From Bacteroidota bacterium (GTDB lineage Bacteria; Bacteroidota; Bacteroidia; Bacteroidales; UBA1402): a DNA stretch of 35,367 nt. Under the pieces are notes generated by a model. The model was given only the letters and a program-made list of their open reading frames with translations, was not told the DNA's origin and did not search any database. Below, one piece after another: positions 14,671 to 35,075 of this stretch (its first letter is position 1; every line of letters starts with the position of its first letter). The stretch covers positions 1 through 35,367 of the forward strand of contig JAUZOU010000003.1 of the NCBI GenBank assembly GCA_030706285.1. The letters run 5' to 3'. The position numbers and the translations under genes are program-made.

Positions 14671-14677
14671 AGCTGAC

Positions 14678-16411: not shown

Positions 16412-16455
16412 AAAGGAATTGAATGAAAAAATGATAAACGAATCCTTTTCGAATG

Positions 16456-16480
16456 AGGAGCGTTCCGAAGAACAACTCCC
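16456..16480 (-). promoter_or_regulatory. C(UUCG)G-tetraloop hairpin in the leader of the GH26 lipoprotein gene
   Basis: Minus strand GGAG-TT-GTTC-TTCG-GAAC-G-CTCC, in the 113-bp gap between the SGBP stop and the GH26 start. Confidence 0.5.
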
Positions 16481-16511
16481 CATTCTTTACTAACCTAAGT
16501 ATAGAACTAAA

Positions 16512-16530
16512 AAATAAAAGGCTTTTATTT
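16512..16530. repeat. Perfect 9-bp inverted repeat overlapping the stop codon of the six-IPT SGBP gene; possible weak terminator
   Basis: Plus strand AAATAAAAG-G-CTTTTATTT; on the minus strand followed by T-rich TTTTTTAG. Confidence 0.45.
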
Positions 16531-18633
16531 CGGATCAAAGCGCATGTTGTCAAAACACAGCCCTGCAAAATCCGTTCCGGCATCCGAAGAATTCAGGACG
16601 ATACCAAAATTACCGCTGCTAAGGGTCGGATTCGAAAGCTTTCCGGCTATAGGTATGGTTAATGTAGCCCATTCTCCACCTGTCGTGATGTAGTCTCCAT
16701 TGACGATAAGCTGAGAAGAAAGGGTCTCGCCGCCGATCATGAACTGAAACTCATAATTGCCCGTGATCTTGATGGGCGTCGTTGTCTTGATATCCACTTT
16801 GAACACATAATTGTCAGAGTTTACGGAAGGCCAGCCACCGTTCGGATCAGGATGGTTGCATCCAAGCACCCACCAACCCGGATGTGAGACCAAAACGATA
16901 TAGCCAAGGGCCTTACAAGCGGCAGCATCATATGAACTGCCCCAGTTATCCCAATCGACAGCGTGCCAATCGGTGGTACGTACGTTGAAATCATAAATCA
17001 TCTTGGTGTCAGCCGTTATCGGATCCGTACCGGACACGGTAAATTCCGGAGAAACGACTTCGCTCCCGTCATACGCTTTCAACGTCAAGGTAACCTTGCC
17101 GTTTTTCGCATTCGTCGGGACATACACTTCCAGTTTGGTAGAGGTACGGTCACCATAGTCGGTTGCTGTGACGCCATTCTGGAATACGACATCCCTGACC
17201 AGATGGAGCTTGGTGCCGGTGATGGTCAACAATGCTCCAGGTTTGACAATAAATGTGATGCTAGTAATAACGGGTTTGTTGGCTGCCGAGAGCGTCAATT
17301 CGTCGGTCGATTCCACCAGATCTCCGTTCTTTGCGACCAAGGTGATCTTGCCGGAAACGGCCGCTGTCGGAGTCGTCACTGTCAGTGAGGTAGAAGAGGC
17401 CGGAATCGCGTCAACGGAAAGGCCACCGCCAAATATGACTTGCTTGACAAGGTCCAGATTAGTACCGGTGATGGTAATATCACCTCCCGCGGTCAAAGAA
17501 AGCGGAGCAATAGTTGCAATGGCCGGCTTAATAAAGGTCAGGTTGGCACTTTCAGCCGTTTGACCGGATTTGGTACTGAGGACGACTTTGCCCTCAACCG
17601 CTGTTTCGGGAACCGTGACACTAATGGAAGTGGCTGTCTGAGTCGTGATGTTTCCCGTTTTACTTCCGCCGAACGTCACGGTAGTGGCCAGATCGAGGTC
17701 TGTACCGGTGATCGTCAGCGTTTGTCCGCTCTTGACCGGATTCGGAGCTATGCCAGTGATGACGGGAGCCACTAGTTTCAGATCTTCTGATGATTGTACT
17801 TCCACTTGAGAATAAGCCACCAGCTTGAACCTTCCCACTTTGGCAGCAGCCGGGACCTTCACCGTGAACGACGTGTTCGACCTGGAAACAAAAGTCGAAT
17901 CCACCAGGTTGTCTGCGAAAATCACCGATTTGATCAGCTGAAAATCGGTACCAGATACCGTCAGGTTCTCACCCGGTTTTACAGGATTGGGGCTCATGCC
18001 GGTCAAGGCCGGCAGCGTAACGGCGACGATCGTGTCTGAATAGACCAGAATGGGTATTTCCTGCCCATTGGAAATGATAATCTTGCCGCTCTGTGCTTCC
18101 TTGGGCACCGTCACCTTGATCTGGTAGCGGGTCTGGCTGTTGAAACTGGAGCTATCTACAACGATGTTGTCGTTGAAAATCACCTGTTTGATGAGGTTCA
18201 GATAATCACCATTGATCGTAAACTCATCACCGGCCTTGATGGTAAGTGGGGTAATACTGCCAATGGAGATTGGCTCGGAAAACGATAAATCGGTCTTTGT
18301 CAAAATATCCCCGTCGGGGGTTTTCAACGTGATTTTGCCAGGCTTGGCATCCTGCGGAATCACAATCTTGATCGTGGTAGGACTGATGACTGTGATGACC
18401 GTCACTTCGATGTTTTCGGGTAGAATAATGGCCGTCACCTTGTCCAGGTTCAAGCCGATGAATTCCAATTCTCCTCCGCGCAAAGCCGGACTCGGACCGA
18501 ACACCTTGAGCTCCACTTTCTCGGAAGCTTCATTCGTGGTATCGCACGATGTGAGGGTCAAACTGCCCAGCAAGAGGCAAGCCATGAGACCTGCCGTCAT
18601 ATATTTCAAAAATAGTTTTCGCATAATGGTCAT
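16525..18633 (-). CDS. Surface glycan-binding lipoprotein, six IPT/TIG-like repeats + C-terminal glycan-binding domain (SGBP-B-like)
   Basis: Start MTIMRKLF or MRKLF (18624); lipobox LTSC (SLTLTSCDTTNEASE). Repeats of the type PxITGIAPNPVKSGQTLTITGTDLDLATTVTFGG; C-terminal DWHAVDWDNWGSSYD...WWVLGCNHPDPNGGW...FAGLCFDNMRFDPK. Confidence 0.82.
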   Translation of the reverse strand: MTIMRKLFLKYMTAGLMACLLLGSLTLTSCDTTNEASEKVELKVFGPSPALRGGELEFIGLNLDKVTAIILPENIEVTVITVISPTTIKIVIPQDAKPGKITLKTPDGDILTKTDLSFSEPISIGSITPLTIKAGDEFTINGDYLNLIKQVIFNDNIVVDSSSFNSQTRYQIKVTVPKEAQSGKIIISNGQEIPILVYSDTIVAVTLPALTGMSPNPVKPGENLTVSGTDFQLIKSVIFADNLVDSTFVSRSNTSFTVKVPAAAKVGRFKLVAYSQVEVQSSEDLKLVAPVITGIAPNPVKSGQTLTITGTDLDLATTVTFGGSKTGNITTQTATSISVTVPETAVEGKVVLSTKSGQTAESANLTFIKPAIATIAPLSLTAGGDITITGTNLDLVKQVIFGGGLSVDAIPASSTSLTVTTPTAAVSGKITLVAKNGDLVESTDELTLSAANKPVITSITFIVKPGALLTITGTKLHLVRDVVFQNGVTATDYGDRTSTKLEVYVPTNAKNGKVTLTLKAYDGSEVVSPEFTVSGTDPITADTKMIYDFNVRTTDWHAVDWDNWGSSYDAAACKALGYIVLVSHPGWWVLGCNHPDPNGGWPSVNSDNYVFKVDIKTTTPIKITGNYEFQFMIGGETLSSQLIVNGDYITTGGEWATLTIPIAGKLSNPTLSSGNFGIVLNSSDAGTDFAGLCFDNMRFDPK

Positions 18634-18642
18634 TGTTTAAGG

Positions 18643-19881
18643 TTATTCAGCAGGTACCACACGAATGTTGTCAATGCAGATGTTCGGGGTACAGTCCGTA
18701 CCTTTCACACCACCATTGAAAACGAAGAAGGTCAAACCGCCGCAATTTCCGGCCGTGAGTTTACCGACTTCTGCTCCAGAAGCATTATACTTGAAATTTT
18801 TGAGAGGAATGGATACGGTGATCCAACCATTCGTCGTATAAGAGCCAGATCCTTCCCACGGGATCCATAGGCCTCTCGGATAAGTGGCATCTCCGACGTA
18901 ACCGTTCGTACCGGAAGTACTCCAAGACGTAAAAATCATCTGGAGGGCTCCGGCAGACCAGGCCTGCGTCACATTCACCTCAAATTTCAGTACGGCATTT
19001 TCCACCGGAATGGAGAAAAGGTCTCCTTCCGGACGTCCGTTGGATGTCCCCCATAGGTTGAAAGCAAAAGCATCCTCATTCCAGGTTTCACCGGCACCAC
19101 CTTTCATCGTTCCTGTAAAGCGTACGTAGTTTCCGGTGATGCCCGTCGGATTGGTATTGGCAATGACACCGCTACGCCAACCACCTGAGGCATTGGTATT
19201 GTCCCAATCCAAAATCATTCCTCTGGAATCACGGAAACGGAAGGTAGAACGCGTGGAGCCATAACGGCTTTTCATGGTGATGGGGCCTTCGGTAGCGGCA
19301 GCCGGAACCTTGACGTTCAGTTGGGTTAACGTGTAAGACACGACTTCCGCCTTGATGTTGGGAGTAAAATAAACTTCCGGCACGTCAGAACCTGCTACGG
19401 AAAGGAAGTAATTGCCATTGATGGTGATGATATCTCCTGCATTGGCATATTCACACGTCAGGGTATTCAAGATCGGAGAAGGAACATCCACACCAAAATG
19501 ATAGGTCACGGTATCCTTATTCTTGTTGATCAGATAGATCTTGTTCGTCACATTGGTCGGGATGGTACTGGGTACGCTCAAAATCAAGACATCCGATTTG
19601 ATGAGACTGGAATTGAGTGTAGCCTGCACGTTGTTAAACCAAACTTCCTTCACACTGGTCATATTTTCACCAATGAGCGCAATAGTGGTTCCCATGAAAG
19701 CATGTGTCAACAGAGAATCGGAACTGAGAGCATCGGGCAGGCGGATATAATCCACCGTTGGTTCGCCACCCGTAATGACATATTCATCCGGATTATCGTC
19801 GCAAGCAGGCAAAGCGAATAACGTCAGCAAAGCCATCGCAGAAGCAACGATTTTCATGGTTGATTTCAATATATTTTTCAT
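18643..19881 (-). CDS. Surface glycan-binding lipoprotein, two IPT/TIG-like domains + C-terminal glycan-binding domain (SGBP)
   Basis: MKNILKSTMKIVASAMALLTLFALPACDDNPDEYV (acidic residues after the lipobox Cys); SIG/IPT-like repeats; C-terminal GMILDWDNTNASGGWRSG...NICIDNIRVVPAE parallels the neighbouring SGBP. Confidence 0.82.
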   Translation of the reverse strand: MKNILKSTMKIVASAMALLTLFALPACDDNPDEYVITGGEPTVDYIRLPDALSSDSLLTHAFMGTTIALIGENMTSVKEVWFNNVQATLNSSLIKSDVLILSVPSTIPTNVTNKIYLINKNKDTVTYHFGVDVPSPILNTLTCEYANAGDIITINGNYFLSVAGSDVPEVYFTPNIKAEVVSYTLTQLNVKVPAAATEGPITMKSRYGSTRSTFRFRDSRGMILDWDNTNASGGWRSGVIANTNPTGITGNYVRFTGTMKGGAGETWNEDAFAFNLWGTSNGRPEGDLFSIPVENAVLKFEVNVTQAWSAGALQMIFTSWSTSGTNGYVGDATYPRGLWIPWEGSGSYTTNGWITVSIPLKNFKYNASGAEVGKLTAGNCGGLTFFVFNGGVKGTDCTPNICIDNIRVVPAE

Positions 19882-19913
19882 ATGATCGTATTTAATTTTT
19901 TTACATTAAAGCC

Positions 19914-19982
19914 ATATGTAACACCGCATGCCCAGATTAGCACTTACTTGGACGCTTTATACAAGCATGCTCGTTTCATAGT
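19914..19982 (-). promoter_or_regulatory. Leader element copy A (GCATGC-bracketed, MKRACLY mini-ORF) upstream of the SGBP gene
   Basis: Minus strand ACTATGAAACGAGCATGCTTGTATAAAGCGTCCAAGTAAGTGCTAATCTGGGCATGCGGTGTTACATATG; closely resembles 35011-35075. Ends about 36 nt before the SGBP start codon; outer arms GTAACAC...GTGTTAC are also complementary. Confidence 0.6.
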
Positions 19983-19992
19983 GTTACTCGTT

Positions 19993-21684
19993 TTAATATC
20001 CAATGGAACTAAAGTCAAATGCAACAGGGGCTTCGCTCAAATGCGGATTCATAGCCAAGTCTGTGTCCGGGAACGGTATGGTGAATTCAATGTCGCTGGC
20101 ATTGACCTTCCAGGATCCGATGGTCACGGTGGACTTGTCGGCCAGCTGGCCTTTATACCAAGCTTCCAGATTGTTCCAATAGCCACGTTCCTGTGCGGCC
20201 AGGCGTGCTCTTGCATCGTCCGGTTTGTAATAACTCAAACGGACAAAATCGTACCAGTTGTCCCCTTCTCCGGCCAATTCGAGTCGACGTTCTTTGAAGA
20301 TATCGTCAAACGTGATGGATGTCTTGTCAACATAGTTTTTTACACTTCTGCCACGAACGGCATTAAATGCAGCTAAGGCCTTGGCATCTGAGGTGGAGGC
20401 GTTGTTGCCCAACACCGCTTCTGCGTAGATCAGGTAAACGTCAGCCAGACGAAGGATATGAGTACTCAACGCCGTGGCCATACGAGCCATGCCCATACCG
20501 GATCCCAGTTCATGATCGTAGTTGTTGCCGACGATATGCTTCACGCAGTTGGAACCGGTACCGCTGCCATATGTGACTCCTTGAGTTGCCGCCTTGGTCC
20601 AGTCGTAGTCAAAACCGCCTTTATCCTGCCAGAAATACTCGTAATGATCACCCTGCATCATCATCGTTGCCTTGCGACGGGCGTCGGTGTTGTTGCGAGT
20701 CAGGCTGGAGGCATCTTCGCCGAAAGCTTGTTCCAAATCGATGGATATTCCAACCCAAGTACCCCAGGTATCAGCAAATTCCGAAAAATTATTCAGAGCA
20801 AGGTCAGACTGAAGGGTATTCTGCGAAGTCCACTGGGCTCCCACCGTCCATCTCCAGGCTATCAGGCTTTCATCGTTGAAGTTGTTAGCCAGGCGAAAAA
20901 TATCCGAATACTTCGGAACCAGCACTCTGCCGCTCTTTTCGATGACATAGCCGGCATATTCAGCCGCTTTTTCCAAATCGTTCTCATCCCGTACACCGGC
21001 GTCGGAATGACCCAATCCGGAACGAGTGAGATAGACCTTGGAAAGCAATCCGTAAGCCCCATATTTATCGATGCGTCCCGGATCATTCTTTTCTGGCAAA
21101 AGTTCGATCGCTTTTTCCAACGTCTTGATGATATAGGTGTAAACGTCTGCTTCAGGGGCCTTGTACACTCCATTATAATTTTTATCAGAAATCATCTTCG
21201 CATTGTCGTGGATAATGGGCACAGCGCCAAAACAACGAACCAGAAAGAAATAAGCCATGGCTTTCCAGGTCATCGCTTCACCCTTTACCGTATTTTTGGC
21301 GTACGTTGTGACATCCGGACCGGCTTTCATGTCAATATTCTGGATGACACTGTTGCAATAAGCATTGACAGACCACAGGGAAGCCGAAGCATTCCGCAAG
21401 GCATCGTCGCTCGATTTCAGTACAAAAGACTGATAGGCATCGTCAGTGCTGTAATACATGTTACCGGCCAAAACATCGCCGATCTTCACAAAGCCACGTT
21501 GAAAGTCGTACCAAGGTGAATTATAGATCGGATTCACAGATTGGAAACACTGTTCATCCGTCTGATAAAAACCATCAATGGAATAACTGTCTTCCGTAGG
21601 GCGGTCCAGAAAATCTTCGCAGGAAGAAAATCCGGCCATCAGGACGGTGGCTATCGCCAAACTCTTTATCGTCAGATTTTTCAT
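19993..21684 (-). CDS. susD-like: SusD/RagB-family outer-membrane glycan-binding lipoprotein
   Basis: MKNLTIKSLAIATVLMAGFSSCEDFLDRPTEDSYSIDGFYQTDEQCFQSVNPIY; WKAMAYFFLVRCFGAVPI; RLADVYLIYAEAVLG; FKERRLELAGEGDNWYDFVRL; adjacent to SusC. Confidence 0.95.
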   Translation of the reverse strand: MKNLTIKSLAIATVLMAGFSSCEDFLDRPTEDSYSIDGFYQTDEQCFQSVNPIYNSPWYDFQRGFVKIGDVLAGNMYYSTDDAYQSFVLKSSDDALRNASASLWSVNAYCNSVIQNIDMKAGPDVTTYAKNTVKGEAMTWKAMAYFFLVRCFGAVPIIHDNAKMISDKNYNGVYKAPEADVYTYIIKTLEKAIELLPEKNDPGRIDKYGAYGLLSKVYLTRSGLGHSDAGVRDENDLEKAAEYAGYVIEKSGRVLVPKYSDIFRLANNFNDESLIAWRWTVGAQWTSQNTLQSDLALNNFSEFADTWGTWVGISIDLEQAFGEDASSLTRNNTDARRKATMMMQGDHYEYFWQDKGGFDYDWTKAATQGVTYGSGTGSNCVKHIVGNNYDHELGSGMGMARMATALSTHILRLADVYLIYAEAVLGNNASTSDAKALAAFNAVRGRSVKNYVDKTSITFDDIFKERRLELAGEGDNWYDFVRLSYYKPDDARARLAAQERGYWNNLEAWYKGQLADKSTVTIGSWKVNASDIEFTIPFPDTDLAMNPHLSEAPVAFDFSSIGY

Positions 21685-21702
21685 ATATTTTCCTTTCATA
21701 GT

Positions 21703-24700
21703 TTAAAACGTGAGATTGAATCCGAAGGAATACACCTGTGGGGAAGGATAACGTCCATTATCCAATCCATAGACATTTGGACTGGCAGGGCTGGCCCCGA
21801 TTTCAGGATCGAATCCGGAGTACTTGGTCCACGTCAGCAGATTTTGGATGTTGGTATATACTCGCAAAGCCTCGATATTGTATTTCCGAAGCATGTTGGC
21901 CGGCACATTGTAACCGAATACGATGTTCTTGATGCGCAGGTAGGAACCGTCTTCAATATAGCGATCGGAAATGCGGTCGTTGTCATTCGGATTTTGCTGA
22001 ATGGCACGAGGCACATTTGTACCGGAATTGGACACCCGGACATTGTCGATATCATCAAACCAATTGTAGATGGTATTGCCTGTCGAATTGACACGCGGAT
22101 AGGTAATGGTCTCATCGATGGCCACCAGTTTGGCACGCCTGTTCACAACAGACAACTGATTGTTCCACAAGGATTCCATATTGGAAAGGTTGCGTGACAT
22201 GTAGTTGAACACCTTGTTTCCATACGACCCGTTCACGAAGACATTCAGATCAAAATTTTTGTACCTGAAGGTATTGTTAAGACCAAATGTAAACTTGGGC
22301 ATCGGAGAACCGATGTTGGTTCGGTCATATTCGCTGATTACTCCATCCGGTTTTCCATCCGGACCACTGATATCCTTGAACTTGATATCGCCGGGATACA
22401 CGGTGCCGGTACGACTGTATTTTCCATCGGCAAGTACTGCCGGGCTGTTTTCGATATCTTCCTTGTCCTGGTAGATACCATCGGTTACATAACCATAAAA
22501 ATTGTACATAGATTCGCCGATTTCCGTTCTGGAAACCACGTCGCTCCATTGGCCGTAGCCTTCGATGGCAGCATTGTCCGTACCGTCCAGGGCTATCAGT
22601 TTGTTTTTGTTGAAAGACAGCTGAGCTTCCGTATCCCAGAGGAAATTGCCCTGGAAGTTGTGCGTATTCAGACTGATTTCAAGACCTCTGTTCTCAATGG
22701 TCCCGTAATTTCCATAAGGTGCCGCCAAGGCGCTGGAGACATTGCCTCGCGTTCCCATGTAGGAAGGAAGCTGGGCCTGCATCAACATGTCTTTAGACAT
22801 CTTCTTATATAAATCCAATGTCAGGTCGATGCGTTTGTTCAGGACAGAAAGATCCAACCCGAGGTTGTATTGTTCCTGGGTTTCCCATTGGATGTACGGA
22901 TTGGCGATTCTGCTCTGTCGATAACCTTCTCCCAATCCTGTATCCATATTGGAAATGGAAGCGCCCCACAAATAGCTGCCGATGCTTTGGTTTCCGGTCT
23001 GTCCCCAACCGAAACGCAATTTGGCGTCATTGATGGTTTCCTTGATACTGCCCCAGAAGTCTTCATTGCTCATTCTCCAGGACACTGCCATGGAATGGAA
23101 CGGAGCCCAGCGGTTCTTTGGACCGAAATTGGAAGATCCGTCCCGGCGGAACGTGTAAGTGGCATAATATTTATCGGCGTAGTTCCAACTGCCACGAGCG
23201 AAAGCTGAAACCATGGCCCAGCTTCCCATACCGGAAGTAATGACCGGATCGGTACCCAATTGAGGGCTGTGGACGGAATTGTCGGGCAGATTCGTCGCCG
23301 TGATGCTCTGATATTCATAGCTGGACTCAGACGTTTCTTGCCCCAACATGAGGGTGGCTTTGTGCAATCCGAATTCCTTATTATACGTCAGGTAATTTTT
23401 TAATTGCCAGTAATTGTCGCTGTTGGTCTGCCAAGCATCGCTATTGATGGTTCGTTTCCACGTGCCGTATGTGGCGGTAGGCCTGAACCGTTCCGCCTTG
23501 GAACCGCCCAAGCTGGTGGCATATTCGGAATGCAACACCAGACCTTGCATCAAGTTGATATCCAAATAAATATTTCCAAGCAAGTTATTACGGTCCAACA
23601 AATTGTCTTCATCCAATGCCTTCGCAATGGGATTGATGCGGGAAGCCACTCCTTCGCGCGACACGCTGGTGTAATGGCCTTCCAGGTCGTAAATAGGCAC
23701 ATCAGGCGTAGAAAGCAATGCCGTATTGATGATGCCTTCGTCACTGTCGGCAAGCCCTAACCGTTCGTGGGTTTTGGAATAACTGAAATTCATACCCAAC
23801 TTGAGCCATTTCTTCATCTGGGCATCCAGATTGGCACGGAAGGAAGACCGGTTGAACGTCGTACCGATAACCGTTCCGTCTTGATCCATATACGAACCGG
23901 CCACGAAATAACGGACGGCTTCGGTACCTCCCGATGCGCTAACAGTATGTGATTGCATCGGAGCAATCTGAAAAACGGCATCCTGCCAATTGGTTCCATG
24001 CCCCAACAAAGAAGGATCGCGGAATTCGTCCCGCATATCCCGGCCGGAAGTTTCAGAGGCAATTTCGTTGCTGTATTCTGCAAATTCTTTCAGGTCCATG
24101 ACTTCCATGCGCTTAGCTTGGCGCTGTACACCGTACAATCCTTCATAAGAAAATTTAGCTTCACCCTTGTTGCCCCGTTTGGTGGTAATGAGAACCACTC
24201 CGTTGGAACCGCGCGAACCATAAATGGCCGTTGCGGAAGCATCCTTAAGAATTTCCATGGAAAGGATGTCAGCCGGGTTGATGGTGGAAAGCGGAGAGAT
24301 AGTGGACGTCGTACCGTTTCCAAGTGCATCTCCCAATCCATATTCGGCACCGCTGTATTCTCTGACATAGACGGGCACTCCGTCAATGACATACAACGGC
24401 TCGGCATTGGAATTGATGGTGTTTTGTCCGCGCACGCGGATGGAAACGGAAGAGCCGGGCTGCCCCGAGGTATAGACCGCCGTCACACCGGCGACACGCC
24501 CTTGCAGCGCCTGGTCCAGGTTGGTGATGACTGACCCCTTCAATTTCTCGACGGTTAGAGAAGTAGAGGCACCTGAGAGATCACTCTTGCGGGCAGTACC
24601 GTAACCAATGGCCACTACTTCCGATAACATCCTGGTGTCTGTCTTCATCTGTACGTTGATCACGTTTTTCTGAACAATGACTTCTTGCTTTTCCATACCG

Positions 24701-24930
24701 ATGTACTTAAACACCAAGGTCTTCCCTTGACTTGTGTTCACCACATACTTACCGTTGGCATCCGTCACTGTTCCTTTGGAAGAGCCTTTGACCATGACAG
24801 ATACACCAGGTATGGGATTGCCATCGCTGACATCTGTCACAACTCCCGAAACAGAAAGACTCTGTGCAGTCACCGTGCATACTCCCATGAGGAGCAGAGC
24901 CGACAATAGAGATAGGATTTTTCTTTTCAT
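21703..24930 (-). CDS. susC-like: SusC/RagA-family TonB-linked outer membrane transporter
   Basis: 1075 aa: signal MKRKILSLLSALLLMGVCTVTAQ; carboxypeptidase-regulatory-like domain (VSGVVTDVSDGNPIPGVSVMVKGSSKGTVTDANGKY); plug IRVRGQNTINSNAEPLYVIDGVPVY, ILKDASATAIYGSRGSNGVVLITTKRG; C-terminal PSPQVYSFGFNLTF. Confidence 0.97.
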   Translation of the reverse strand: MKRKILSLLSALLLMGVCTVTAQSLSVSGVVTDVSDGNPIPGVSVMVKGSSKGTVTDANGKYVVNTSQGKTLVFKYIGMEKQEVIVQKNVINVQMKTDTRMLSEVVAIGYGTARKSDLSGASTSLTVEKLKGSVITNLDQALQGRVAGVTAVYTSGQPGSSVSIRVRGQNTINSNAEPLYVIDGVPVYVREYSGAEYGLGDALGNGTTSTISPLSTINPADILSMEILKDASATAIYGSRGSNGVVLITTKRGNKGEAKFSYEGLYGVQRQAKRMEVMDLKEFAEYSNEIASETSGRDMRDEFRDPSLLGHGTNWQDAVFQIAPMQSHTVSASGGTEAVRYFVAGSYMDQDGTVIGTTFNRSSFRANLDAQMKKWLKLGMNFSYSKTHERLGLADSDEGIINTALLSTPDVPIYDLEGHYTSVSREGVASRINPIAKALDEDNLLDRNNLLGNIYLDINLMQGLVLHSEYATSLGGSKAERFRPTATYGTWKRTINSDAWQTNSDNYWQLKNYLTYNKEFGLHKATLMLGQETSESSYEYQSITATNLPDNSVHSPQLGTDPVITSGMGSWAMVSAFARGSWNYADKYYATYTFRRDGSSNFGPKNRWAPFHSMAVSWRMSNEDFWGSIKETINDAKLRFGWGQTGNQSIGSYLWGASISNMDTGLGEGYRQSRIANPYIQWETQEQYNLGLDLSVLNKRIDLTLDLYKKMSKDMLMQAQLPSYMGTRGNVSSALAAPYGNYGTIENRGLEISLNTHNFQGNFLWDTEAQLSFNKNKLIALDGTDNAAIEGYGQWSDVVSRTEIGESMYNFYGYVTDGIYQDKEDIENSPAVLADGKYSRTGTVYPGDIKFKDISGPDGKPDGVISEYDRTNIGSPMPKFTFGLNNTFRYKNFDLNVFVNGSYGNKVFNYMSRNLSNMESLWNNQLSVVNRRAKLVAIDETITYPRVNSTGNTIYNWFDDIDNVRVSNSGTNVPRAIQQNPNDNDRISDRYIEDGSYLRIKNIVFGYNVPANMLRKYNIEALRVYTNIQNLLTWTKYSGFDPEIGASPASPNVYGLDNGRYPSPQVYSFGFNLTF

Positions 24931-25588: not shown

Positions 25589-28500
25589 TCACCTTGTCAG
25601 TGAGAACCTAATACTGACCCCAAAGTCGGAACTTCTCACCGGGTAGGAAGATACCAACGGCACACTCGATTCCAGATCATAAAACAGGACTAAATTCATG
25701 TTCTTGCTCATCGTATAATCGCCGGAAAGCTCGACAACAAATGTCTTATTACCCGAAGATGCCTGCGTATAGTCGCCTTCAATCTTCCTGAGCAACGCAT
25801 GCATATCCTTATATTTCAGATTACCGGTCAGATTCAGGTCATTCTTAACCTTCGAGCCTTTCATAAAACCCCACGGATGGAAATCGCTCAATTTGTAGCC
25901 TGTCCCCGCTCCAATCTGATTCTGATCGGTCTCAATAATCTGTCCGCCACTGATGCTCAGGCTTAGAGCACGTGTCTTTGTTATCTCGGTATTCAATGTC
26001 AAACCGCTATTCAGGGTCCCCTGGATTCGCAGCAACGGATTGAACGATTCAGTCAATGTTACAGCAGAAATGTCATACATCGAAGACGGGACAGCACTAT
26101 TGGTCAAAACGTCACGAACAAAGCCCAATCCATCGCCGGCGTTCTGCCAGGTACTGTACGTTGAGAAGGATGAAACGCCGTATGTGCACGTGTAGTTATG
26201 GTTGAGTGTGACGCTCTTGAAGTATTTCCTGATAAATTCCAGTTTGGATAGACCATCGTACGAAATACTCCAGTTCGGCAGCATGGACAGTAACCCAGGA
26301 AAGAGGTCCAGGCTGGAAGTTCTGGCGTCCTTGCCCGAATAAGCGGCCAAAAATGCAGGGATCAGCACATCGGCCGAATTCAGATCGAAGGCACCATTGG
26401 ATTTATTGTACACACTGCCAGCCAAAGGAGTATCTTTCAGGAAGCCGGTCGAAGGATACAGTTTTCCAGCCATCTTCTCTTCCAGTCTGCTGGCGATCAT
26501 CGACCGGTTTGCCAAAAACGTTTCAAAGGCCTTCGACCGGTATCCGTTTGATGCTTTGGACGATTCAAATGCAGTAGACAGTGCGATGGTGGTCATGGTA
26601 AAATTACCTGTCCTGGTTTCAGGCATGCCATCATACATATACTGAATTTCCGTATTGAAATTCCACGCCCTGGCTCCATTGAATTCAATCTTCAGGCTTG
26701 GTAAAATTTCCAGCGAAGCTTTCACTCGTAAATCGGTATTTTTCGTCATGTACGCCGGCGTCATCACCGTATCCAGCACCAACCAATTCTTGTCCAGCGC
26801 TTTCTGCAGATAATCCGAGCCCTGAAAGCCCAACGCGTAGTCCCAACCTGGAGCCGTTCCATAATCCGTCTGAGAAATCAAGCCTGTTTCAGGTTTAAAA
26901 CCCGGAATGGTCAACCCGTCAGATTGCTTGTATATAACTGAAACATTCCGGACAGACATCAATGTGCGGGCAATAAAGCTGACCGGCTTATACCAGTCTT
27001 CCTCTTCCAACTCCGGCTTTTGCAGGACTGTTATCTTTACGGTGCCATCTTTGGGGCCTTTGACAGCCAGGCTGTTTTCGTCTTTAATGTGATAATCCAA
27101 CTGGACTTTCTTCCCGGCAGAATCGACGGCTACGGCAAACACCCGTTTGTTTTTCAAGCCGTGTTTGATCAGTATGGCAGAATCCGCAAACAGATTCACT
27201 TCCTTTTCAAATTTTCTGGAAGTCTTGACAGGCGTTGCCGGTACGGCTCCGGGTGTTTTCTTGTCCTGTGGTTTGACCGACTTGTCGTCCGGCGCTTTTT
27301 TACCGGCTGTTTGTTTCTCTGTTTTCTTGGTCGTAACAGGCCGTTGTGGGGTGGGTTTGTTTGCCTGGGCGAGTATCTTTTTAAGGAAAGCCGACTTATT
27401 GTACAGGGTCGTCATATTGGCAGAAGCTGTCATACTCATGGTTCGCTGGTTGGATATCTGGTTTCCAAGGTCGTTGTCTGTGCCTGACGTCGTACTGCGT
27501 TCCCAATTATAAACGGCATTATACTGGGAATTCAGCGTCAAGAAATCAAAGGCTGGGAGCCGGTTCAACGGCACTTGCCACGTCAGATTGACGGTCTGGG
27601 AATAATTCAACGGTGTTCCGAAACTTCTCAGGCTCCGGCTCACCGTATCTTTCCAATTTTCATACTCAGTTGCATACAGTGCTTTGTTCACCGGTGCATA
27701 ACGGGTCTCTTCCACTTCTGCCTGATTATTGACAGAGGCGTTGAGTTTCAGATTTTTGGTCAAGTTCCAGTTGACAACCAAATCAGAATTCCATAGGAAA
27801 TTCTTGCTGACAGTCAGAGGCGTTGCCAACTCTTCGGCCGAGGTGGTCGACAGATTTCTGGACTGAAGCTCATAATAATAACGGGTCAACTTCGAACTGG
27901 CCGTCACTGAATTCGGCAGGAAATTCAAATTCAATTCTTTCAGCAGTTTGAGCCAGGATGAAGTCATCTTCTTGTCGTTGGCAAACGGTTGCCAGGGTTT
28001 CAACGGTGAAGCATAATTGTAGTTGACACCACCCTGATAATTCTGGGTAATTTCATATTCGGTTGTCGGATCGTGTTCATCCGACTCCGTGGAATTGTAA
28101 TTGAACGAGAAATTGGCCGGGTCGAACGGCATTGGCGTTTTGCTTTTCAGATTAATCCTGACATTCGAGAAGTTCATACTCTTGTATGTTTTCAGCGTCT
28201 GACTGTAATTCAGGATGGAATCACGAACAGCCTTACTTTTAGTTGACTTCAGTACATCTTTCAAAAGCAGGTCTTCATTGAGCGGATCATATTTCGGAAG
28301 CGTGCGTTCCTTCGAAATGGAATAATAGAACGGGAAGTTCACTTTCGCCTTTTCAGGAAACAAACGCCCAAGATCGGTATTGAAGGAGATATTGTATTGG
28401 CTGTACGTATCCTGCCTGCGCTGTGAAACACTTTCTTCCAGCCCTCCGAAACCGTCGGTGATGTATTTTCCGCTGGCTGTCACCGTCCCCAAATCCGATA

Positions 28501-31500
28501 CATTGAGCACGGCACTTCCCAGTGCAGCCCAGCCCCCGTTGTCCTTAAATCCTGAAAGCCGCAATTCATCAGCCCAGATTTCCAGCGATTTAACCGTACC
28601 GCTTTTGTTCCGGATCCCGATCATGATGGTTTCCACATCTGAGAGCGTCGGATTTCCTTTTATTTTGACCTTGTTTTGTTCATTATCAGGATCATATTCT
28701 GAATATTCGGTTGTGTAGTTTCCTCCTGAGACTGCGTTTCGTTTGGTCTTGAGTTTGGTAAACAAATCAAACGGGATGTCAAGATAATTATTCTCTGGCC
28801 AGATAGAACGTGCCGTGTTTACATAAAAGGGTGAGATTTCCAATGGCACTTCATATTCATAATAGTTGCTCTGGTTGTCGGAACCTAAGCGAATAAACAC
28901 TGTTGTTTCATAATTCTTCGGCGGATTCAGGTCATTCTGAAGCGCCTCGGCATGAACAAACAGTTGAATCCGTTTATATTGTCTAAAATCGTATGACGTG
29001 TTTTTATAAATCGCCCTGGCGTCATTCGGCGACAGATTGTTTACCCGTAGAGCCAGGGATTGTTCATCTTCCAGATAGACACCAGGCTGGCTGGGATCCG
29101 TTTCCTGTTCAACACCAGGTGGCAACTTATAGTTGATGGGGCTTCTTCCGGAATTTTCCTCCAGACTGACGGTCGATACATCCATCGTCGCATCGGAAAT
29201 CGGTACCGATCCGGCTGTATAAAGATCTTTCGTATACGAGCGCCAGTCTCCGCGTACCAATTCCAACGTACCGAACCTCAGAATCACACTGTCCTGAAAA
29301 CCGGTCAGAAACAGGCGCATAAACCGGATGCTGCTGAACCCGTTTATGGTACCTACTTTCTTTTCGTAGTCTGTAATGGGCACTTTAAACTGATACCATT
29401 TCACCTTGGCGGTTTTGCCGTTTTTCAAGGTAACGGTAGCAACTCGCTTATCATTGATAAAATTCTGCCCGACGATGGTATCGGACGGCCTTAATGAAAC
29501 CCGGTATTGATAATACCGTTCCGATTCATTCAGCGTAAAATCGAGGTTGATATCCTCGACATTGGGCAAGGTCGTAGCTGCTGTAGAATAGGTCTCATTG
29601 GTATATTCTGGGGGTAATGAGTTGCCTTCTGTTCCGTTGTAATGTTTGTAACGATCCAGAATGTCCGTTTTTTTACTGTCAAAATCAGAGCCTCTGAAAT
29701 AATGGTAATCATCCCCGGCCGGGTCATTCAACGGAGAGAATTTATCGTCTGTCATTTCTTCCAGCGCTGTCGGGTTTAATTTGGCTTTGACTCCTTTTAC
29801 ATAATCCGAAACGCCAGGCCAGGTTGCTTCTTCTTCGTCCGACAAACCATCCAGACCGACATCCTGTTTAACCCTGACACCTGCGGTATTGTCAAACGAA
29901 TAGGCCGTTGATGATTTGCTGGAAACCTTTCCCCAGGCCGTTTCGCTGACAAGCGATGCATCCGACGCATTCGTCGGCAGTCCATTTTCAAACGAGCGTT
30001 TGCCATCTTTCAGCACATCTTCTGATATCTCGCCCAGGTCAAAGTAGAGATCACCGCCAGTGGCCACATCCGTTGAGTCGTATACAAACGGGTCCATCAG
30101 CCAGAACTCTATGTATTCGACATTATTGGATTCGAAATTCGTATAGCCGGACTCTATCTTGCGCATGATACCGCCCCAGCGTTTTTCAGGATGAGACAAT
30201 GTTCCATCCGCTTGCATGCCATCCACATCATAATTATATGGGCCACGCTGTTTGGGATAAAAAGCAAGGTTCATGACTGGCAAAATGCCAACCTGGTTAA
30301 ACGCAATGTCCCTGTCCGGAAAGATTTCTTTTTCATTGACAACACGGACATAATGGTTGGAGAGTTGGTCGACATCGTTGCGCAGATGACTCGGTGTCTG
30401 TGAACTGTTGTTGTAGTTTAATGTTCCGTCAATGGAATACCAGGCCAGCAGGGCACGGTTGTAGCCATAGGCCAGATCGTTTGATTTGGCGGCCTCCGGG
30501 AACAGCCCCCCGGAAGGATCGTAAGGCGTACTGGCCAAGAACCATTGCGTCATATCCTTCAGGTTATACGTCTTTTTGGCTGATTCAAAATCATCCACGT
30601 AAGAAACATTTTTCAGTTCGCTGGATGTTCCGGCTACCAGTTTGGCATATTCTGCGCTGACAGTCAAACTTGAAGGCTTGGTTGCTTCAATCAGCGGAAG
30701 CTTGTCCACCAGATTGGTCAGCAATTGCGATTCTGTCTTGAAGGATGTGTTCACTCCGAAAATGGTATTCGAAACAGATTCATAACCCATATCGACCTTG
30801 GTGGTTAGCGGTGTTTCAGACAGATGCATCATGGTACCGCCCAAACTGAAATTATCATTGAACTTATAATTCAAGGCGAGCCCGGTCATGGTTTTTCGAA
30901 CCATACTGTAGGTGGACTGATCTTCGCAAGTCGCATTAATCGCTGTTCCGGAGGTAATCAGGTCGGAATTCGTAATGGTCACCGTTCCGGAAATATAATC
31001 CACGGTATAATCGACATTCTCCGTCAACTTCTGACCTCCGGCCGTAACAGTCACAGATCCTTGAGCCACATTGGTCGCACCAAGGGATATGGTGGCGCCC
31101 GAAGAAGCCTTGTATTCACCGGTGATCCGGAACTTATTCTTCTCAGACAATTGCTGAGCCACCGTCAACGTCGAATCATAAAGTTCCTCGAACACATATT
31201 TGTCTGCCAATGCATCATCGCCGATCGCCTGGCGCAAATGGGATCCGAAGGGCTCCAGCACCGGAAATATGATACGGCCATACGTGGACTGAACGGTATA
31301 ACCCTCCACAAAGTCGAACAATCCGTCCGGATAGGCTTGTTGTTTGGAGTTCAGCCTGTCCAGTCCCATCACTTTCAGCAGCAAGGTGTTTTTGATTTTC
31401 CCTTCCGTCAGGTAAGTCATATCTGTCCCTACAGAATCACTCTGATAAACCACATTCAGTTTAAAACCATCCGATTGAAGGTTATAGGCATCGCCAAGGG

Positions 31501-33052
31501 TATATACGTTTTTCATCATCAAATCCCAAGTCGGTGCTGATGGTGAACAATTGGTTCCTTTCAACAACTTCAGAAACAAGGTTTGGGGTGCCTGGATGCC
31601 ATCAGTGGAAAATTCTCCGACTTGATACGTCTGCCCACCTTTCGAGTATTCATAGGCCACGGCCAAAATTTCATCACTGTTGAGCGCCTGCTTGAGAGAT
31701 ATATAGCCCAATGTACTGTTCAAGGTATATTCAGACGCATCCAAACGCCGGGCACTTTCCAGCCGTTCGTAATCTTCTCCTACCGCAAGGCCGATTGGTG
31801 AAAGCGTAGAATTGACATCGCTGAACGTACGGGCGCCCGCATATTGATTGGTAATTTCGGAATAAAGGCTGTTGCTTCCGTTGGATGGATAGGTTCCGGT
31901 CGAGGTCCAGTGTGAATTGCTGATGTATGCAGGTTCAGCCAGATCGGCAAAAGCGACAATGTTTCTGGCATTGTCCAATGTACTGGTTTTGTTGGTGACC
32001 CAGACTTCAACCTTCGTAACGGTCATACCGGAAGAGACATACGGTAATTTACTCATCCAGGTATCATAATGATCGCGAAAATAATGAGACAGGAAAAAAT
32101 GCCTGTTCTCATCATAGTTATCGACTGCCAGGTCAAATTTTCTGGACTGCGCACCGCCTTCGAGACTGACCGATTTTGTCTGTGAATTTTGTTGGGATAC
32201 CACCGTTGCCACAGATAACTTTCCGAACTGCAACTCGGTCTTGACTCCAAATAACGATGAACCGCCTGTGATCAGGGAACTGTTCAATGGCATGCTGACA
32301 TTACCGGCCTCTATCGACTTAATGATATCGTCCTCTTTGCCATCATAGTGTAATTTGACAGACTTGGCATCATAATTGAAGGTGGCCTGTGTGTCATAAT
32401 TCATGTTGACATCGATCTTGTCTCCCACTTTTCCATTGACACTCATCTGAATCTGAGGGTCAAAATTGAACATCGTTTTGTTTCGTGCCGTTTCAGATAA
32501 AGAGGGATTGTCCACTTTATTGGTTTTTAAGCCGAATTTAGTTTCAATGGATCCCTGCGTTTTAAGCCGGACGCCTCCTTCACCAAAAATTTTGTCACCG
32601 AGCCCAAGATCAAACTGCATATCCGTCAGGGAAAAATCCTGACCCTTTTTCGTATAATCAACCTTGTTTTTTTCTTTCCAATAAGCGGCAGAAGACTGTT
32701 GTTGCTGGTACTTCAGGTATTCCTGCTGGGTCAGGTTGATCGGGGTCCCGATTTTAGTATCGCCCAGGTAGGTGACCAGAGAATACAGTCCGGTTTCCGG
32801 ATCATATTCCACTTTAGACTCAATGTTCGATGGATTTTTCAAGTCTCCGGTTTTACTTTCCGTCAGGTCTTCCATCGTTTCCGGGATCGTTTTCGATACG
32901 GGATGAACCGGACGTTTGGCTTCTGCCAAGGCACTGTCTTGCTGTCCGGCAGCCATATTCACCTCAGTTTGTGGTGACGCCGCTGAAAAGATACTGAATG
33001 CACCGGCCAGTGAAAACAGTAAAAATAGCAGGATGGACAGTGGACGTTTCAA
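25589..33052 (-). CDS. sprA: SprA/Sov, type IX secretion system outer-membrane translocon
   Basis: 2487 aa, signal peptide; YDPETGLYSLVTYLGDTKIGTPINLTQQEYLKYQQQQ, FDLGLGDKIFGEGGVRLKTQGS, GKVGDKIDVNMNYDTQATFNYD, YVDDFESAKKTYNLKD, IEFWLMDPFVYD; terminal YPVRSSDFGVSIRFSLTR. Immediately downstream of ruvA. Confidence 0.95.
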   Translation of the reverse strand: MKRPLSILLFLLFSLAGAFSIFSAASPQTEVNMAAGQQDSALAEAKRPVHPVSKTIPETMEDLTESKTGDLKNPSNIESKVEYDPETGLYSLVTYLGDTKIGTPINLTQQEYLKYQQQQSSAAYWKEKNKVDYTKKGQDFSLTDMQFDLGLGDKIFGEGGVRLKTQGSIETKFGLKTNKVDNPSLSETARNKTMFNFDPQIQMSVNGKVGDKIDVNMNYDTQATFNYDAKSVKLHYDGKEDDIIKSIEAGNVSMPLNSSLITGGSSLFGVKTELQFGKLSVATVVSQQNSQTKSVSLEGGAQSRKFDLAVDNYDENRHFFLSHYFRDHYDTWMSKLPYVSSGMTVTKVEVWVTNKTSTLDNARNIVAFADLAEPAYISNSHWTSTGTYPSNGSNSLYSEITNQYAGARTFSDVNSTLSPIGLAVGEDYERLESARRLDASEYTLNSTLGYISLKQALNSDEILAVAYEYSKGGQTYQVGEFSTDGIQAPQTLFLKLLKGTNCSPSAPTWDLMMKNVYTLGDAYNLQSDGFKLNVVYQSDSVGTDMTYLTEGKIKNTLLLKVMGLDRLNSKQQAYPDGLFDFVEGYTVQSTYGRIIFPVLEPFGSHLRQAIGDDALADKYVFEELYDSTLTVAQQLSEKNKFRITGEYKASSGATISLGATNVAQGSVTVTAGGQKLTENVDYTVDYISGTVTITNSDLITSGTAINATCEDQSTYSMVRKTMTGLALNYKFNDNFSLGGTMMHLSETPLTTKVDMGYESVSNTIFGVNTSFKTESQLLTNLVDKLPLIEATKPSSLTVSAEYAKLVAGTSSELKNVSYVDDFESAKKTYNLKDMTQWFLASTPYDPSGGLFPEAAKSNDLAYGYNRALLAWYSIDGTLNYNNSSQTPSHLRNDVDQLSNHYVRVVNEKEIFPDRDIAFNQVGILPVMNLAFYPKQRGPYNYDVDGMQADGTLSHPEKRWGGIMRKIESGYTNFESNNVEYIEFWLMDPFVYDSTDVATGGDLYFDLGEISEDVLKDGKRSFENGLPTNASDASLVSETAWGKVSSKSSTAYSFDNTAGVRVKQDVGLDGLSDEEEATWPGVSDYVKGVKAKLNPTALEEMTDDKFSPLNDPAGDDYHYFRGSDFDSKKTDILDRYKHYNGTEGNSLPPEYTNETYSTAATTLPNVEDINLDFTLNESERYYQYRVSLRPSDTIVGQNFINDKRVATVTLKNGKTAKVKWYQFKVPITDYEKKVGTINGFSSIRFMRLFLTGFQDSVILRFGTLELVRGDWRSYTKDLYTAGSVPISDATMDVSTVSLEENSGRSPINYKLPPGVEQETDPSQPGVYLEDEQSLALRVNNLSPNDARAIYKNTSYDFRQYKRIQLFVHAEALQNDLNPPKNYETTVFIRLGSDNQSNYYEYEVPLEISPFYVNTARSIWPENNYLDIPFDLFTKLKTKRNAVSGGNYTTEYSEYDPDNEQNKVKIKGNPTLSDVETIMIGIRNKSGTVKSLEIWADELRLSGFKDNGGWAALGSAVLNVSDLGTVTASGKYITDGFGGLEESVSQRRQDTYSQYNISFNTDLGRLFPEKAKVNFPFYYSISKERTLPKYDPLNEDLLLKDVLKSTKSKAVRDSILNYSQTLKTYKSMNFSNVRINLKSKTPMPFDPANFSFNYNSTESDEHDPTTEYEITQNYQGGVNYNYASPLKPWQPFANDKKMTSSWLKLLKELNLNFLPNSVTASSKLTRYYYELQSRNLSTTSAEELATPLTVSKNFLWNSDLVVNWNLTKNLKLNASVNNQAEVEETRYAPVNKALYATEYENWKDTVSRSLRSFGTPLNYSQTVNLTWQVPLNRLPAFDFLTLNSQYNAVYNWERSTTSGTDNDLGNQISNQRTMSMTASANMTTLYNKSAFLKKILAQANKPTPQRPVTTKKTEKQTAGKKAPDDKSVKPQDKKTPGAVPATPVKTSRKFEKEVNLFADSAILIKHGLKNKRVFAVAVDSAGKKVQLDYHIKDENSLAVKGPKDGTVKITVLQKPELEEEDWYKPVSFIARTLMSVRNVSVIYKQSDGLTIPGFKPETGLISQTDYGTAPGWDYALGFQGSDYLQKALDKNWLVLDTVMTPAYMTKNTDLRVKASLEILPSLKIEFNGARAWNFNTEIQYMYDGMPETRTGNFTMTTIALSTAFESSKASNGYRSKAFETFLANRSMIASRLEEKMAGKLYPSTGFLKDTPLAGSVYNKSNGAFDLNSADVLIPAFLAAYSGKDARTSSLDLFPGLLSMLPNWSISYDGLSKLEFIRKYFKSVTLNHNYTCTYGVSSFSTYSTWQNAGDGLGFVRDVLTNSAVPSSMYDISAVTLTESFNPLLRIQGTLNSGLTLNTEITKTRALSLSISGGQIIETDQNQIGAGTGYKLSDFHPWGFMKGSKVKNDLNLTGNLKYKDMHALLRKIEGDYTQASSGNKTFVVELSGDYTMSKNMNLVLFYDLESSVPLVSSYPVRSSDFGVSIRFSLTR

Positions 33053-33057
33053 TCGAG

Positions 33058-33648
33058 TTACAGCAATTTAAGCGCAGCCTTGACAACCTGCTCAACAGGC
33101 ATATCAGGAGCCTCAACCATTAATTTGTTAACCGCTTTTTGTGAAGCGGACAGAGGAAATCCAAGCATCTGCAACGCAGCCAATGCTTCCGAACGGACCT
33201 GGTTGCTGGTCGAAGAAACAAGTGGCATATCGGATTGCAACAGTTTCGATTTTTGAATTTTATCCTTCAGATCGACCAGAATGCGCTGAGCTGTCCTAAT
33301 CCCGATACCCTTGACGGACTGCAACATGGATACATTTTCACTGACGATGCCTTGTTTCAATTCCTCTACCGTCAACGAAGACAGGATCATACGGGCTGTA
33401 TTCGCCCCCACACCGGAGACGCCTATCAGCAGCAGAAAGATATCCCGTTCTTCCATTTTTGAGAAACCGAACAACAAATAGGCATCTTCCCGGATGGCTT
33501 CATACACATAAAGTTTGCACTCGGATTGCGATTGGATCGCCGTATAGGTATTCAGGCTGATTTGCAGAAGGTACCCTATTCCATGGTTGTCCAATACCAC
33601 TGATGTTGGCGTCAGTGATTCCACGTTTCCTTTAATATATTCGATCAT
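33058..33648 (-). CDS. ruvA: Holliday junction branch migration complex subunit RuvA
   Basis: MIEYIKGNVESLTPTSVVLDNHGIGYLLQIS; EDAYLLFGFSKMEERDIFLLLIGVSGVGANTARMILSSLTVEEL; LQSVKGIGIRTAQRILVDLKDKI; C-terminal EALAALQMLGFPLSASQKAVNKL. Confidence 0.97.
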   Translation of the reverse strand: MIEYIKGNVESLTPTSVVLDNHGIGYLLQISLNTYTAIQSQSECKLYVYEAIREDAYLLFGFSKMEERDIFLLLIGVSGVGANTARMILSSLTVEELKQGIVSENVSMLQSVKGIGIRTAQRILVDLKDKIQKSKLLQSDMPLVSSTSNQVRSEALAALQMLGFPLSASQKAVNKLMVEAPDMPVEQVVKAALKLL

Positions 33649-33667
33649 AGCTGAGTCTGTTGATGGC

Positions 33668-33693
33668 ACCGGCAGCCATACCGCCGGTTTTTT
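33668..33693. repeat. GC-rich hairpin just upstream of the ruvA start codon; terminator-like in the plus orientation
   Basis: Plus strand ACCGGC-AGCCATACC-GCCGGT followed by TTTTT; 6-bp GC-rich stem, about 20 nt from the ruvA ATG (33648). Confidence 0.5.
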
Positions 33694-33826: not shown

Positions 33827-34981
33827 TCACCGGTTAAGTTCGAGGCAGGCCATGATAAAAACGCCGGTGGCTTTGCCATCATCACTCCGGACCGGGGTAT
33901 GAATGTAATAATCGTAACTGCCGTCACGGTAGGGCGTTCCTCCCAAACCCGCCACTTCACAGCAATGAGTGATTGAAATGGTTCCATTTGGATTGGTTAC
34001 AATCAGGTGCTTTTTAATGCCTTTAAAGGCTTTCAACGCTATCTTCCTGTAACCGGCAGGCAAATAGCCCTTGTTCGTCGCTTTAGCGTAGAAATACATC
34101 ATCATGGCTGAGACAGAGCCTTCGAGAAAATTACCGTTCCTGTTTCCCTGATCGACGACCTGATACCAAAGGCCAGTTTGTTTATCCTGATACTTGAGCA
34201 TACCGTCAGCCAACGTTCTGACCAATTTAATCACGTCAGCCCGTTGAGGATGTGTGGCTGGAATGTAGTCCAGGTTATCCACCAATGCCATGGCATACCA
34301 ACCGATGGATCTGCCCCAGAAATTGGGAGACGTACCGGTTACCGGATTGGCCCATTTTTGAGAGCAGCTTTCGTCCCAGCCATGGTAAAACAGGCCGGTT
34401 TTCTGATCATAGGTATGTTTGGCTACCGTTATAAGCTGATGGATGGCCTCATCAATGCAGGCAGGCTGATTGAATGTTGCCCCGTATTGGGAAAGGAAGG
34501 GAGAAGCCATGTACAATCCGTCCAGCCACATCTGATGAGTGTAGACTTTCTTGTGCCAGAATCCACCGTCAGCTGTCCTTGGTTGTCCTTTAAATTGCTG
34601 AAGCAAAGTATCCATGGCCATCCGGAATCGTTTTTCACCTGTCGCTTCATACAGATAAAACAACACTTTACCCGAATTGATGAAATCCAGGTTATAGTTA
34701 TCCATTTTATAGAGATAAATTGAACCGTCTGAACCGATCAGGCTGTCTCCCCATTGATAGACATAATTGAAATACGTTTTGTTGCCTGTCGCTTTCCACA
34801 ATTTCATAAAGGCACATCCCCCAAGCCCTTGGGTATAGCCTGGAAACAAACGCGTTCCATAATCATACTGGTAAAGATGTGGAAAACGCACCATCTCAGA
34901 CTCCGCCATCCTGACAGACATTGTTGCCTGGATACCACCCAGCAGGCAAAGAAAAACAACTGTAAACATCAGTTTTTTCAT
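33827..34981 (-). CDS. GH105/GH88-like (YteR-type) unsaturated glycuronyl hydrolase, secreted
   Basis: Start MKKLMFTVVFLCLLGGIQATMSVRMAESEMVRFP; TADGGFWHKKVYTHQMWLDGLYMASPFLSQYG, FWGRSIGWYAMALVDNLDYIP, GNFLEGSVSAMMMYFYAKA, HTPVRSDDGKATGVFIMACLELN. Confidence 0.9.
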   Translation of the reverse strand: MKKLMFTVVFLCLLGGIQATMSVRMAESEMVRFPHLYQYDYGTRLFPGYTQGLGGCAFMKLWKATGNKTYFNYVYQWGDSLIGSDGSIYLYKMDNYNLDFINSGKVLFYLYEATGEKRFRMAMDTLLQQFKGQPRTADGGFWHKKVYTHQMWLDGLYMASPFLSQYGATFNQPACIDEAIHQLITVAKHTYDQKTGLFYHGWDESCSQKWANPVTGTSPNFWGRSIGWYAMALVDNLDYIPATHPQRADVIKLVRTLADGMLKYQDKQTGLWYQVVDQGNRNGNFLEGSVSAMMMYFYAKATNKGYLPAGYRKIALKAFKGIKKHLIVTNPNGTISITHCCEVAGLGGTPYRDGSYDYYIHTPVRSDDGKATGVFIMACLELNR

Positions 34982-35010
34982 CTGATAATCATTTTTTTTG
35001 TTTAAGGACA

Positions 35011-35075
35011 GATGCAACACCGCATGCCGATGATCCTCTGCTTGAGTGCCTGGTACAGGCATGCGCGTTTCATAA
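35011..35075 (-). promoter_or_regulatory. Leader element copy B (GCATGC-bracketed, MKRACLY mini-ORF) upstream of the GH105-like gene
   Basis: Minus strand TTTATGAAACGCGCATGCCTGTACCAGGCACTCAAGCAGAGGATCATCGGCATGCGGTGTTGCATC; GCATGCC...GGCATGC 7-bp complementary arms, internal GCCTG-TAC-CAGGC hairpin; ends about 32 nt before the GH105 start codon. Confidence 0.6.

Follow-up and report, generated by a model that had tools for sequence, protein, structure and literature searches.

A 90-nt repeat ahead of a glycoside hydrolase gene in Bacteroidota: a probable non-autonomous mobile element found mostly at start codons

The leader of a GH105-like glycoside hydrolase gene was analysed in a 35,367-nucleotide stretch of Bacteroidota DNA, referred to here as the window. 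The repeat in this leader, copy B, is probably a member of a phylum-wide group of non-autonomous mobile elements of about 90 nt, which insert at NTGA(A), mostly at gene starts, by means of a putative CAT guide resembling that of IS200/IS605. As far as sequence comparison goes, mobility is shown by the many copies, precise empty sites, unit boundaries at two ATGs, tandem insertions, decay in place and covarying helices.

Copies B and A in the window

Copy B extends from the ATG of a short upstream ORF (mini-ORF) exactly to the start codon of the downstream gene. Its features, all on the minus strand, are listed below. R1 is a 93-nt profile built from 23 copies, whose alignment contains both copies of the window, and R2 is a structural model.

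34979–35073, minus: copy B, complete unit from the left ATG to the right ATG inclusive (R1 positions 1–93, 90 bits; R2, 74.8 bits)
35069–35073, minus: left boundary ATGAA, containing the presumed target (former start-codon position), and mini-ORF start; empty/filled pairs place the insertion here
35002–35073, minus: 23-codon mini-ORF MKRACLYQALKQRIIGMRCCICP; peptide not kept in other genomes
35058–35069, minus: helix 1, 5′ arm AACGCGCATGCC (covariation over 36 genomes, 0 of 5000 shuffles as high)
35016–35028, minus: helix 1, 3′ arm GGCATGCGGTGTT (covariation)
35009–35014, minus: putative guide CAT plus CTG, forming the 5′ arm of helix 2; the CAT alternatively pairs with the left ATG (helix 2 covariation)
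34979–34984, minus: helix 2, 3′ arm CAG plus ATG, the right element boundary; its ATG starts the downstream gene (covariation)
33827–34981, minus: downstream gene, GH88-family (GH105-like) glycoside hydrolase, 384 aa (PF07470, Glyco_hydro_88, E=1.2e-107)

The Pfam family Glyco_hydro_88 includes GH105 as well. The sequence-only reading had described an intact mini-ORF, closely spaced to the gene and containing complementary 7-nt arms, and on these points it was accurate. The minus strand from 35073 to 35002 runs from ATG to TAA and codes for the 23-aa peptide, the stop lies 20 nt before the ATG of the downstream gene at 34981, and the arms are GCATGCC (35064–35058) and GGCATGC (35028–35022). 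Just upstream of copy B on the minus strand lies a T-tailed stem, AGCAGA/TCTGCT, which was not listed by the terminator scan because its loop is longer than the limit of 8 used in that scan. The window also carries, on the minus strand at 25589–33052, a gene for Sov/SprA, the outer-membrane translocon of the T9SS (2487 aa, TIGR04189), which adjoins ruvA (33058–33669).

A second unit, copy A, had been said to match copy B in placement. It aligns over the whole unit and also ends on the ATG of the next gene.

19879–19979, minus: copy A, of a different subfamily (helix 2 CATATG/CATATG; 71 bits with R1)
18643–19881, minus: gene abutted by copy A at its start codon, SGBP-B-like surface glycan-binding protein (PF18329, E=7.7e-49)

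Copy A is flanked by a SusD-like gene upstream and by the SGBP-B-like gene. The minus-strand region 12919–24930 holds a SusC/SusD/SGBP locus together with a GH26+CBM35 protein and an AXE1-type esterase and looks like a mannan-utilization locus; copy A lies inside this putative locus, between susD and the SGBP gene.

Copy number, boundaries and distribution

The repeat shared by copies A and B is far above chance, as judged from the 90 and 71 bits obtained with R1 and from 93 matches at E<0.003 in the genome. The 3.6-Mb genome from which the window comes contains about 90 copies of the element; some of the 93 matches are half-copies, and 101 matches were obtained at E<=1. A DNA search of the same genome gave some 28 clear matches. 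In most copies the unit is 87–98 nt long, and nearly all units open with NTGAA and close on ATG. When the copies were aligned, sharp boundaries were seen at the left (NTGAAACGAGC) and at the right (...TATCAG or ...GATCAT, each followed by ATG), and the sequence outside them was unrelated. The left end reads ATGAA in 61 of 66 copies collected across the phylum; its first base is occasionally G or T, like GTG and TTG starts.

The congener G002 has at least 41 copies and G069, which belongs to another family, at least 43, whereas the rest of the order has fewer; no copies were found in the congeners G001 and G003. A phylum search with R2 detected relatives in at least 23 of 398 genomes (E<1e-4), from several classes, a lower bound since ten candidates were scored per genome. 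A blastn search of plasmids and phages with several consensus forms gave no real match, and the element therefore looks chromosomal. A scan of contigs with GGCATGCGGTGTTNCAT returned 91 unrelated matches, about chance level by estimate.

Empty sites, stacking and decay

Orthologous empty sites were found in sister genomes at 13 genes, with the junctions at the start codon. The first set comprises leuB, proC, eno, fmt, cmk, fabD, topB and trkA; the second, from another genus (g95), comprises metG, lutA, bglX, pyrC and one unnamed gene. In some empty/filled pairs the left flank and the gene match the sister sequence right up to the boundary. In one such pair the empty site reads ...caattgtagcgt joined to ATGAAAAATATT, and the filled site reads ...caattatagcgt joined to ATGAAATGAGC...TCTTCGT, again joined to ATGAAAAATATT. 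At metG the empty sister sites read ATGATACAG and the filled site reads ATGAAATGAG... followed by ATGATACAG, so that the target cannot be longer than ATGA, the second A of the left ATGAA being part of the element. At cmk the stop codon of the upstream gene lies within the left flank, GTGA, as it does within the ATGA of the empty orthologue. ATGA flanks the element on both sides, and this could reflect either a duplication or an end borne by the element.

Units also stack at a single start codon, the new beside the older (loci L101, L117, L173 and L396), and copies erode where they stand. An example is the pyrC copy: G165 has it intact, in G438 it is eroded, and in G272 nothing but its right end is left.

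Several further observations concern related repeats and shared sites. The metG site is filled in two species (L372 in G272 and L425 in G300) by elements of very different sequence, both with the two helices described below intact; the site is empty in other species of the genus, and either recurrent insertion or a retained copy would account for this. A third element subtype, ATGAAACGAGCCCATGATC...GGCGAGTTCCATCG...AATAATGAG directly before the ATG, is stacked with the main subtype before leuB and proC (L313 and L314 in G002). A second repeat, the palindromic GTTTTAAG(A/C)AGCGAGTGCAGAG..GCGCAAAAC of about 80 nt, is nested in some element copies just after an internal ATG (L111 on G000:C104, L114/L115 on G000:C421, L314 and L315 in G002), and elsewhere it forms tandem arrays with a period of about 78 nt (L137–L139). 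An autonomous long copy was sought among the half-copies, and the gaps proved to be nested insertions of this second repeat.

Two covarying helices

Two helices are conserved with compensatory changes. Helix 1 is a hairpin of the form AUG.A.AAC..../....GUU.C.CAU; in helix 2, CAU and the next three nucleotides (CAU+NNN) pair with NNN+AUG of the downstream start. Helix 1 is found in the compensatory forms AACAUCCAU/AUGGAUGUU, AACGCC/GGCGUU, AACACCU/AGGUGUU and AAUGCCC/GGGCAUU, and in many types, instead, the AAC/GUU stem is separated from the GCAUG/CAUGC stem by GA facing GA. Helix 2 occurs as CAUCUG/CAGAUG, CAUAUG/CAUAUG, CAUGUG/CACAUG and CAUCCG/CGGAUG.

Over 36 genomes, with one copy per genome, 184 of 288 helix 1 cells were paired against a shuffled mean of 139, and 93 of 108 helix 2 cells against 70.8, with 0 of 5000 shuffles as high in either case; the shuffles ignore relatedness, and the compensatory forms recur across families and classes. 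The helix 1 count on a MAFFT alignment agrees. In 106 copies of three genomes, 231 of 318 helix 2 cells were paired (shuffled mean 198, 0 of 2000 as high).

The same CAT at the 3′ foot has two possible pairing partners: the left ATG, forming the base of hairpin 1, and the right-end NNN+ATG, forming helix 2. The left pairing is nearly invariant and offers little variation for covariation, whereas the right-end pairing covaries. The fifth pair of helix 2 is kept in only 30 of 57 copies of the window's own genome, and many single copies break this helix. RNAalifold found no consensus structure in 23 copies of that genome, and the structure became clear only once other genomes were added. Single-sequence folding z-scores were weak in the window, so that the structure rests on covariation; in several MFE folds the AUG of the gene is hidden in helix 2. 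A central motif around ACACAAGGNNATGATTAT, outside both helices, also recurs across classes in the phylum-wide set (e.g. L393–L414).

Reading frame and peptide

The Cys-rich mini-ORF had been taken as part of a cassette, possibly a leader peptide or attenuator, deployed on carbohydrate-utilization genes. Under such an attenuator, translation of the 23-aa peptide would control the GH105-like gene. The frame is indeed intact in copy B and in most of its subfamily, where all 11 indel-free copies are free of stops (7.6 would be expected) and the fraction of synonymous changes reaches 0.35 as compared with 0.25 (p=0.017, from counts that ignore shared ancestry). Elsewhere neither the peptide nor the frame is kept. 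Other genomes give MKRACL*, MKRA*, MK* and MKHP*, the upstream ORF varies from 2 to about 40 codons among copies, and the frame of copy A meets a stop after 11 codons. The peptide had no match in NCBIfam or Pfam, and the genes that follow the copies are unrelated to one another (nuoF, proC, leuB, fmt, lepB, cmk, metG, pyrC, eno and others), which speaks against deployment on carbohydrate genes. Control of the gene by a leader peptide is thus very improbable for copy B, and for the element family this reading is largely refuted. Of the earlier interpretation there remains a leader element that is dispersed and structured and keeps a constant position with regard to start codons; the weak frame signal is confined to the subfamily of copy B.

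Placement on start codons

The ATG at the right end opens a long frame in 65 of 75 scorable copies of the window's own genome, 17 of 23 in G002, 15 of 27 in G069 and 53 of 66 in the phylum set, 150 of 191 in total, with tandem copies that are followed by another copy counted as misses. For comparison, 320 kb of G002 were found to contain ATGAA at 110 predicted gene starts and at 180 other intergenic sites on either strand. Insertion directed by sequence only would thus put 38% (110/290) of the copies at gene starts, against the 150 of 191 observed (p about 3e-30); this null is rough, being drawn from one genome, with gene calls taken as the longest ATG frames and all intergenic sites assumed equally tolerant. 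Only 40% of the predicted gene starts in the same 320 kb read ATGAA. The right flank is nearly always ATGAA even where no gene follows, so there is a sequence requirement too. The excess at start codons is beyond what sequence-directed insertion alone explains. The sequence-only reading had named as its refutation a decayed mobile repeat lying at random with respect to start codons. Half of this holds, since the repeat moves and its copies decay where they stand; the other half does not, given a strongly non-random placement.

The start excess, together with the shared metG, leuB and proC sites, could reflect retained function, and a cis-acting RNA switch has to be considered. In such a switch CAU would be paired in helix 1 with the upstream AUG or in helix 2 with the AUG of the gene, making translation of the upstream ORF and of the gene exclusive or coupled, and the element would have spread because it is useful and been kept for regulation. 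Covariation of both helices, burial of the gene's AUG in several MFE folds, placement far above the sequence-only expectation, the weak frame signal of the copy B subfamily and the two divergent metG elements with intact helices are all consistent with this possibility. The targets, on the other hand, are unrelated housekeeping and secreted-protein genes, sister species lack copies at the same genes, and upstream ORF length varies widely. Loss of helix 2 from many single copies and decay of the pyrC copy in place argue against regulation as the force that keeps most copies. We consider a regulatory switch unlikely as the explanation of the family.

Proposed mode of insertion and effect on the gene

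As a mobile element, the repeat would use its CAT as a guide that recognises ATG both in the target and at its own end while the DNA strand is single-stranded, a role suggested by the covariation. Cutting would be carried out by a trans-acting enzyme, as in the peel-and-paste transposition of IS200/IS605, but here a single hairpin would carry, at its 3′ foot, the one guide used for both ends. Upon insertion the old start site would become the start of a short upstream ORF and the coding sequence would remain intact, and the gene would gain the start context of the element (A-rich at −12/−13, C at −3). Bacteroidota start translation without Shine-Dalgarno sequences. Among 88 start-located copies, 77 have C at −3 and none has A, compared with A at 46% of native starts; A at −12/−13 is nearly always present. 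In Flavobacterium johnsoniae, an A at positions −3, −6, −12 and −13 promotes translation, as does low secondary structure (PMC6847099). The C at −3 is the base required by helix 2, which suggests that structure, not translation efficiency, shapes the right end of the element. From these sequence features, an inserted copy would probably reduce translation to some extent.

No partner enzyme that would move the element was found. One candidate explanation is a REP-like element moved specifically by a Y1 transposase (TnpA-REP/RAYT), possibly belonging to the 'atypical secondary structures' that have been described next to genes of Bacteroidetes subclass 2.6 (PMC6006769). The conserved NTGA at the 5′ foot of the hairpin and the high copy number fit this explanation, and Y1 genes (PF01797) were found in 19 of the 23 genomes with copies (12 of 13 phylum-level and 7 of 10 order-level positives). 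No Y1 gene was found in G284 (100% complete, 7 copies), G000, G002 or G075, which all carry copies. A search of 60 Y1 loci for a flanking element gave only isolated matches, consistent with background, and the element has no GTAG/GGAG tetranucleotide. Its placement at start codons also differs from that of measured REP families, which lie near gene 3′ ends (PMC3733652). A Y1-driven REP element is thus rather unlikely. Because Y1 was not found in four carrier genomes and Y1 loci are not flanked by the element, we propose that the element works like IS200/IS605 and do not claim membership.

More tentatively, and with the balance of our judgement somewhat against it, the repeat may represent a new class of mobile element. 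The CAT guide of such an element would read ATG in the target as well as at the element's own end, so that each insertion would hit a translation start and then rebuild it, and in the mRNA the CAU would choose between two AUGs. Least-damage insertion would explain its wide spread, 5′ leaders would have been rewired genome-wide, and the machinery would be one not yet described. An element of high copy number that inserts at start codons throughout the phylum would be an overlooked source of change in 5′ leaders and translation initiation in Bacteroidota. It can mislead gene calling and small-ORF catalogues, as many copies make a mini-ORF without a conserved peptide. The shared-guide geometry raises the testable question of how so short a DNA, 90 nt, reads ATG in two positions, and it might point the way to a mobilising enzyme not described before.

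Comparison with known systems

In IS200/IS605 elements, target and right-end cleavage site are both recognised through base pairing with a guide located beside a hairpin (PMC6006769). The present element likewise has a hairpin, a putative short guide that would pair with a 4-nt target at the left end and with right-end sequence, and a short fixed target. It differs in that its single hairpin carries, at the 3′ foot, a guide that both ends would share, whereas the insertion sequences have two hairpins with separate guides at the 5′ feet, in being about 90 nt long without a gene, and in occurring in several genomes where Y1 was not found. REP/BIME sequences with their RAYT (TnpA-REP) proteins, including Bacteroidetes subclass 2.6, are similarly short, hairpin-forming, high-copy, non-autonomous and chromosomal; unlike them, the element has no GTAG/GGAG foot, lies on start codons in sense orientation and is not found beside RAYT genes. 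HEARO/IscB (OMEGA) elements insert next to ATGA/GTGA and leave the start of the following gene intact. The likeness extends to the insertion site and the spared start, but the present element is about 90 nt long and has no internal gene.

Searches of Rfam (including HEARO, Flavo-1 and Bacteroidales-1) gave no match at the gathering score, nor at E<=1 in seven loci, and only chance-level matches near copy B; with no match to any Rfam family, there is none to HEARO. Leader-peptide attenuators and cis-regulatory RNAs of Bacteroidetes (Bacteroid-trp RF01692 and others) also have a short ORF and a hairpin just upstream of a gene; the element differs from these in lacking a conserved peptide, a pathway link and an Rfam match, and in its variable presence between sister species.

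Among prokaryotic MITEs, BrickBuilt of Porphyromonas gingivalis is a minisatellite within a MITE (PMC4596501). Such MITEs are likewise small non-autonomous repeats in Bacteroidota, whereas the present element is defined by two covarying helices and start-codon targeting. A classical MITE was rejected, as no terminal inverted repeats with the target-site duplication of a known transposase family were seen; the only inverted repeat in the element, ATGAAACGAGCATG/CATGCGAGTTCCAT, is imperfect. Also set aside were integron attC sites (box consensus not matched), group I/II introns (no catalytic core) and the DUF1661 repeats of P. gingivalis, which have a different sequence. In the open-access literature, no start-codon-inserted element like this was found in Bacteroidota, and we know of no precedent for this choice of target. 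We place the element among the small non-autonomous mobile elements, a broad kind already known, as an apparently new family.
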